Source: Candidatus Eremiobacteraceae bacterium
GTDB taxonomy: Bacteria; Vulcanimicrobiota; Vulcanimicrobiia; Eremiobacterales; Eremiobacteraceae
Direction: 5' to 3'
NCBI GenBank assembly: GCA_035710745.1
Contig: DASTCX010000003.1
Location: forward strand, 124,001-188,000
Length of the DNA stretch: 64,000 nucleotides
Program-made: the position numbers and the translations under genes
The notes under the pieces: generated by a model
The model's input: only the letters and a program-made list of their open reading frames with translations
Databases searched by the model: none
Told to the model about the DNA's origin: nothing
Part shown: in pieces, positions 57,263 to 57,610 of the stretch
Position numbering within the stretch: position 1 is the first letter of the stretch
How the letters are laid out: each line of letters starts with the position of its first letter

Positions 57263-57610
57263 TGGTTGCGGGGGCGTGATTTGAACACGCGACCTTCGGG
57301 TTATGCTTGCTACTTCGGCTTTCGCCGCTCCGCCGCCGCTCGACGGATTCGTAGTCTGGACTTTCCCTTCACCCCGACGAGTACGTCTGGGTGCCTGCCA
57401 TCAAGTCTCTACACCTTCCTCGCATTGGCGAGGCTTGGCTCGGGATTACCCTGCTAACGGCTTCCCCGACTTTGACAGGTATCCCGTAAGAATCGCTTCT
57501 TACGGAGCCCACGATGCGATCGGTCACTATTCATGCAGCTCCAGCAGTGGCCGCTGCTTGCCGATCGCGAGTTTCGAGCCCGACGAGCTACCGGACTGCT
57601 CCACCCCGCG
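57263..57610 (-). tRNA. Initiator tRNA-Met(CAU), interrupted by a group I intron
   Basis: Exon 1 is 57577-57610 (34 nt, CGCGGGGTGG ... TCGGGCT) and exon 2 is 57263-57305 (43 nt, CATAACCCGA ... CGCAACCA). Joined, they give a 77-nt tRNA with anticodon CAU. Initiator hallmarks are complete: a C1xA72 mismatch in the acceptor stem, three G-C pairs in the anticodon stem (GGG/CCC), and the fMet-type D-arm. The T arm is GCGTG-TTCAAAT-CACGC, and CCA is encoded. The interruption is a 271-nt group I intron after U33. It lies between the PQQ-like gene and the divergent DUF1028 gene. Confidence 0.93.
57306..57576 (-). ncRNA. Group I intron in the initiator tRNA anticodon loop
   Basis: A 271-nt insert between U33 and C34; the upstream exon ends in U and the intron ends in G, as group I introns require. 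Inside, GGTAATCCCGAGCCAAGCC (P4-P6 region) and GGAAGGTGTAGAGACTTGAT (P6-P7 region) closely match the well-known conserved blocks of the plastid/cyanobacterial tRNA-Leu intron, and GGGAAAGTCCAGACTAC supplies the P7 3' strand (GACT with AGTC). Two hairpins have GNRA loops: GTAAGAA-GCGA-TTCTTAC (P2-like) and CGGC-GAAA-GCCG (P9-like). No homing endonuclease is encoded. P1 was not resolved. Confidence 0.88.

Follow-up and report, generated by a model that had tools for sequence, protein, structure and literature searches.

We consider it very probable that the only tRNA-fMet gene detected in this genome, that of a member of the Vulcanimicrobiota (the NCBI name; alias Candidatus Eremiobacterota), is split by a homing intron of the Synechocystis type that splices and has lost its endonuclease. 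The gene lies on the minus strand of the window, by which we mean the whole 64-kb stretch of DNA that was analysed. Exon 1 (57577..57610; CGCGGGGTGGAGCAGTCCGGTAGCTCGTCGGGCT, read from 57610 to 57577) comprises nucleotides 1-34, ends in ...CGGGCU at U33 and equals the corresponding part of the intact fMet genes of G003 and G012, two genomes of the same family. Exon 2 (57263..57305; CATAACCCGAAGGTCGCGTGTTCAAATCACGCCCCCGCAACCA, read from 57305 to 57263) runs from C34 through the encoded CCA. U33 and C34 are separated by a group I intron of 271 nt (57306..57576) whose first base is C and whose last is omega-G, at 57306, boundaries common to 113 other fMet introns. Length and boundaries agree with the initial annotation, which gave no strand. 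The joined exons, 77 nt in all, fold as tRNA-Met(cat) and show the C1xA72 mismatch and GGG/CCC anticodon stem that satisfy initiator identity, together with an encoded CCA, as had been described from the sequence. Over 74 of 74 nt the spliced tRNA is identical to the uninterrupted fMet of G003 and G012, in which the empty site is observed directly. An adenosine deaminase gene adjoins fMet both in intronless G012 and in intron-bearing G010, and likewise in the window with one extra gene between; this shared neighbour implies that the same ancestral fMet gene was interrupted. Directly 3' of the tRNA there is a terminator-like hairpin with a T-run (57237..57263, minus strand), a consensus match of which one was found against 0.7 expected in shuffled sequence. 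The start of the intron (57576-57568, CGAAACTCG) resembles the 3' exon (CATAACCCG).

With default settings ARAGORN reported zero tRNAs in the 64-kb window. It recognised the joined 77 nt as tRNA-Met(cat), and misnamed the gene tRNA-Ser(cga) once introns were permitted. Because the gene is missed or miscalled in this way, fMet introns could account for genome annotations in which the initiator tRNA is absent or wrongly named. The source genome (G000) is a metagenome-type assembly in 41 contigs, which might invite the suspicion of an assembly or binning artefact. We regard this as next to impossible, as the intron sits inside a 210-kb contig between genes that are syntenic with relatives, and orthologous introns occupy the same base position in genomes that were assembled independently. 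These genomes are G001 (JANWLL010000033.1, Candidatus Eremiobacteria bacterium, of the same genus as the genome of the window), G010 and G013 (JAFAHD010000080.1, Candidatus Eremiobacterota), both of the same family, and G103, of another family.

The covariance-model search proposed in the initial annotation matched Rfam RF00028 (Intron_gpI) at 57527-57341 over the full model (1-253), scoring 50.8 bits (gathering score 50) with an E value of 5.8e-10 over 64 kb. All elements lie on the minus strand. The two arms of a P1 extension, 5' (GCGAUCGG, 57561..57568) and 3' (CCGAUCGC, 57516..57523), are paired when the intron is folded at minimum energy. The 3' arm is followed by a P10 strand GUG (57510..57512), able to pair with the CAU of the 3' exon, an internal guide sequence GGCUC (57505..57509) and a P2 hairpin (CCGUAAGAA-gcga-UUCUUACGG, 57484..57505). 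The guide precedes P4 by 40-41 nt, an offset that is the same in the other four Vulcanimicrobiota introns. The catalytic core P3-P8 (57359..57479) contains P3 (57479-57473/57400-57394), P4 (57469-57465/57444-57440), P7 (GACU 57407-57404 with AGUC 57362-57359) and the base of P8 (57393-57389/57374-57370), and it is followed by a P9 region (57306..57358) with a GAAA-capped hairpin, a basal CUAC/GUAG stem and omega-G. The U/G splice-site rule noted at the outset holds here, since the 5' exon GGGCU pairs with the guide so that its terminal U faces a guide G. In a simple guide-sequence search across 114 fMet introns, none was recognised in 40, many of them cyanobacterial.

This core is supported by covariation in a structural alignment of 34 fMet introns from many phyla, in which helices P2, P3, P4, P5, P6, P6a, P7, P8 and P9 are named. 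The named structure is paired in 90.1% of cells, with changes on both sides in 42 of 61 pairs, and its covariation score is 0.321, against 0.143 when shuffled and at most 0.093 when slid. Double changes occur in six of the seven P3 pairs and all six P6a pairs, while P7 is standard in 34/34 introns yet invariant, which is consistent with a helix but beyond the reach of covariation. An unguided RNAalifold prediction showed compensatory changes in 28 of its 39 pairs. On this anatomy, the precursor would fold so that GGGCU of the 5' exon pairs with the guide as P1, placing U.G at the cleavage site; guanosine would then cleave after U33, and ligation of the exons via P10 and omega-G would yield a normal 77-nt tRNA-fMet. 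We infer from these features that the window intron splices, and its excision would be needed before the cell can begin protein synthesis.

Whether the cell depends on this gene bears on the alternative that it is dead, the intron unspliced, the tRNA a pseudogene and initiation served by an fMet gene absent from the assembly. The assembly is 97.9% complete, so that a second initiator gene could have been missed, and the loss of the endonuclease, an Rfam score near the cut-off and an end branch of the window intron (0.29) longer than those of its sisters would all suit such decay. However, the exons are intact, with zero substitutions relative to intronless relatives over the 74 nt compared, and core, P7, guide and omega-G are all preserved. 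The second, intact fMet gene that the initial annotation had asked after was not found in G000, where the only two other CAU tRNAs lack initiator features, nor was a second initiator tRNA found in the four related genomes with the same arrangement, G001, G010, G013 and G103. We therefore consider a dead gene very unlikely. Among other genomes of at least 90% completeness, G002, G011, G038 and G048 gave no clear fMet match, which contig breaks or unusual introns may explain. If the sole initiator tRNA is indeed spliced, it is conceivable, if highly speculative, that splicing serves as a control point at which the use of guanosine or GTP ties translation initiation to the guanine nucleotide pool. 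Were this true, the intron would have been kept for regulation after loss of its endonuclease, and would not be a decaying parasite.

No ORF for an I-Ssp6803I-type PD-(D/E)XK endonuclease was found in the window intron, but full endonuclease ORFs are present in the introns of two genomes of the same family, G001 (654 nt) and G013 (649 nt), and in that of G103, the three lying within 649-655 nt. In G001 and G013 the ORF has 176 codons, lies in the P1 loop and extends into the ribozyme core. Both products match PF11645 (PDDEXK_5) at E values of 1e-46 or better and are 62-65% identical to I-Ssp6803I, the G013 product matching it (PDB 2OST) at 3.5e-59; a YDLVFD...VQ(V/I)K stretch is conserved in the endonucleases. 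The intron of G010 (292 nt) retains an ORF reduced to a C-terminal fragment (RHQRRPRSSAYRDAWNSIAAWAP), a decay intermediate. In the window intron the trace amounts to at most seven codons, PIASWAP, which adjoin the 3' arm of the P1 extension in the endonuclease frame, beside the guide sequence and also within ribozyme sequence; this is possibly a remnant of the endonuclease C-terminus ...LIAxWAP. One bacterial family thus contains the empty site, an intron with endonuclease, an intron with a fragment and a bare intron, four states that would fall in order along the known homing cycle. Such a series suggests that the window copy once held an endonuclease gene and, having lost it, persists as a splicing-only remnant. 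It is likely that homing has driven the spread of the intron: full-length sister copies would supply an I-Ssp6803I-like PD-(D/E)XK endonuclease from the P1 loop, and a relative of these enzymes targets the intronless anticodon region. Because all four states occur in one Vulcanimicrobiota family, the homing cycle can be tested directly there at an essential tRNA gene. In the fMet-intron family at large, 85 of 114 introns are shorter than 360 nt, too short for the ORF; short introns being common, the endonuclease is no strict criterion of membership.

A viral origin of the intron was considered and rejected. The intron-exon pattern had no match in viral contigs, phage relatives of the endonuclease were distant (27.9-34.7% identity among the 20 matches listed), and its plasmid relatives came to one weak match. 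A stand-alone I-Ssp6803I-like ORF (L249:3001-3411, 49% identity) immediately precedes a tRNA-Met(cat) within a viral array of tRNAs and is not inside an intron. The window's own contig also contains a tightly packed array of tRNAs that are divergent and cover many specificities, like the arrays found in large phages or mobile elements (L033, G000:C3:20700-23000).

The distribution of fMet introns was surveyed with a pattern of P7 strands tied to the fMet 3' exon across 84,980 prokaryote species, each represented by a single genome, and at least 115 loci were found. With two duplicates left out, 113 scan loci were combined with four Vulcanimicrobiota copies from whole genomes to give 117, among which a 5' exon was recognised at 116; L208, lacking one, was excluded. 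Two further loci, L182 and L189, were dropped from the 116 as chance pattern matches on intact genes. There remain at least 114 verified introns of 207-695 nt at the U33/C34 site, in at least 14 phyla. In all 114 the 5' exon ends in GGGCU and the intron in G (...GGGCU|...G|CAUAACCCG), and the first intron base is C in 113. The phyla (NCBI) are Cyanobacteriota (with Melainabacteria), Bacteroidota, Omnitrophota, Rhodothermota, Nitrospirota, Chloroflexota, Vulcanimicrobiota, Uhriibacteriota, Actinomycetota, Pseudomonadota, Acidobacteriota, Thermodesulfobacteriota, Armatimonadota and Chlamydiota, of which those represented by one MAG could reflect binning errors. The site is shared with the cyanobacterial copies in this set, such as L206.

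The initial annotation had pointed out that an initiator tRNA interrupted by a group I intron in a non-cyanobacterial host, as is the case here, would mean lateral transfer or an older origin. For the fMet-intron family as a whole, the occurrence in at least 14 phyla and the tree of the introns favour transfer. Bacteroidota introns as a single clade are rejected (AU test, p 1.5e-6), which implies cross-phylum transfer, while a single cyanobacterial clade is not rejected (p 0.28). That the fMet intron has crossed phyla is the likeliest reading of these sequences. The five introns of Vulcanimicrobiota group as a single clade (100/100), and nearest to them, with moderate support (89/91), are two introns of Chloroflexota (Anaerolineae). 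The endonuclease tree agrees, grouping the Vulcanimicrobiota enzymes (99/95) and joining them with those of Chloroflexota (96/90).

The intron might alternatively date back to the ancestor of the phylum or beyond and have mostly disappeared since, without lateral transfer into Vulcanimicrobiota. The single Vulcanimicrobiota clade is compatible with such vertical inheritance, and host-like groupings within the phylum are not rejected by AU tests; for the same reason we do not claim lateral transfer within Vulcanimicrobiota, even though the topology hints at it. Against an ancestral intron, the pattern occurs in only 5 of 149 genomes and 4 of 70 genera of the phylum, alongside congeneric sisters that have no intron, the closest introns belong to Anaerolineae, endonucleases from different phyla are up to 74% identical, and the Bacteroidota introns do not hold together as a clade. 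Strictly vertical descent is accordingly unlikely in our estimation.

The intron had been described initially as carrying the conserved blocks of the tRNA-Leu(UAA) intron. A group I core is indeed present, but these blocks are general to group I introns and the nearest relatives are fMet introns. The tRNA-Leu(UAA) introns of cyanobacteria and plastids resemble the window intron in ribozyme class and core blocks, and differ in host gene and site and, as observed in this analysis, in the lack of an endonuclease. Assignment to the Leu type was rejected, the host gene being tRNA-fMet and the Leu introns of the class having been found separately. The latter, in tRNA-Leu(UAA) genes outside cyanobacteria and plastids, are at L085 (G021, about 810-550) and L090 (G032, about 780-530), both on the minus strand; the tRNA-Leu(UAA) of G000 itself is intronless. 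Their presence in the same class, with short core blocks in common, could suggest that a Leu intron lineage moved separately into tRNA-fMet in this phylum. This we find barely credible, because the window intron, in a tree of fMet introns, is placed with those that occupy the identical site in other phyla, and its sister copies carry the fMet-specific I-Ssp6803I-type endonuclease.

Group I introns in proteobacterial tRNA-Ile(CAU) and tRNA-Arg are small, self-splicing and located in the anticodon loop; by description they are set apart from the present intron by other tRNAs and other sites. The closest known system is the tRNA-fMet intron of Synechocystis PCC 6803, of 655 nt with a 150-aa ORF encoding I-Ssp6803I (PMC1995217). 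Host gene, insertion in the anticodon region and group I core are alike, and the copies of G001, G013 and G103 are about as long (649-655 nt), in contrast to the window copy of 271 nt, which is without endonuclease, in a different phylum and nearest to Chloroflexota, not cyanobacterial, introns. Initiator-tRNA introns have been described as cyanobacterial and gained by lateral transfer (PMC4033280, PMC1995217). With tRNAscan-SE 2.0, missing fMet or Ile2 was attributed to group I introns in 36 genomes; Gloeobacter and Synechocystis are the named fMet examples, and tRNA-Ile2 group I introns are also mentioned (PMC8450103). The presence of fMet introns at one base position in at least 14 phyla is a much wider range than these three reports state. 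In a literature text search that covered few subscription journals, 'group I intron' and 'Eremiobacter-' never occurred together; earlier reports of fMet introns outside cyanobacteria may exist. An intron of this kind in this host gene was known before, as the initial annotation recognised, and so was its association with the endonuclease; what the present analysis adds is the broad host range and, within a single family, the series of homing-cycle states.

Group I introns at E <= 0.001 were seen in 32 of 147 Vulcanimicrobiota genomes searched, many in 23S rRNA, indicating that the phylum is intron-rich. The 23S rRNA gene of G000 (L001, G000:C18, minus strand) has inserts at 370-681, about 1200-1480 and 1501-2153, comprising two scored group I introns, one of them under the Rfam cut-off, and an apparent third. 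The largest insert contains a LAGLIDADG-like ORF (FVDGEGCF).
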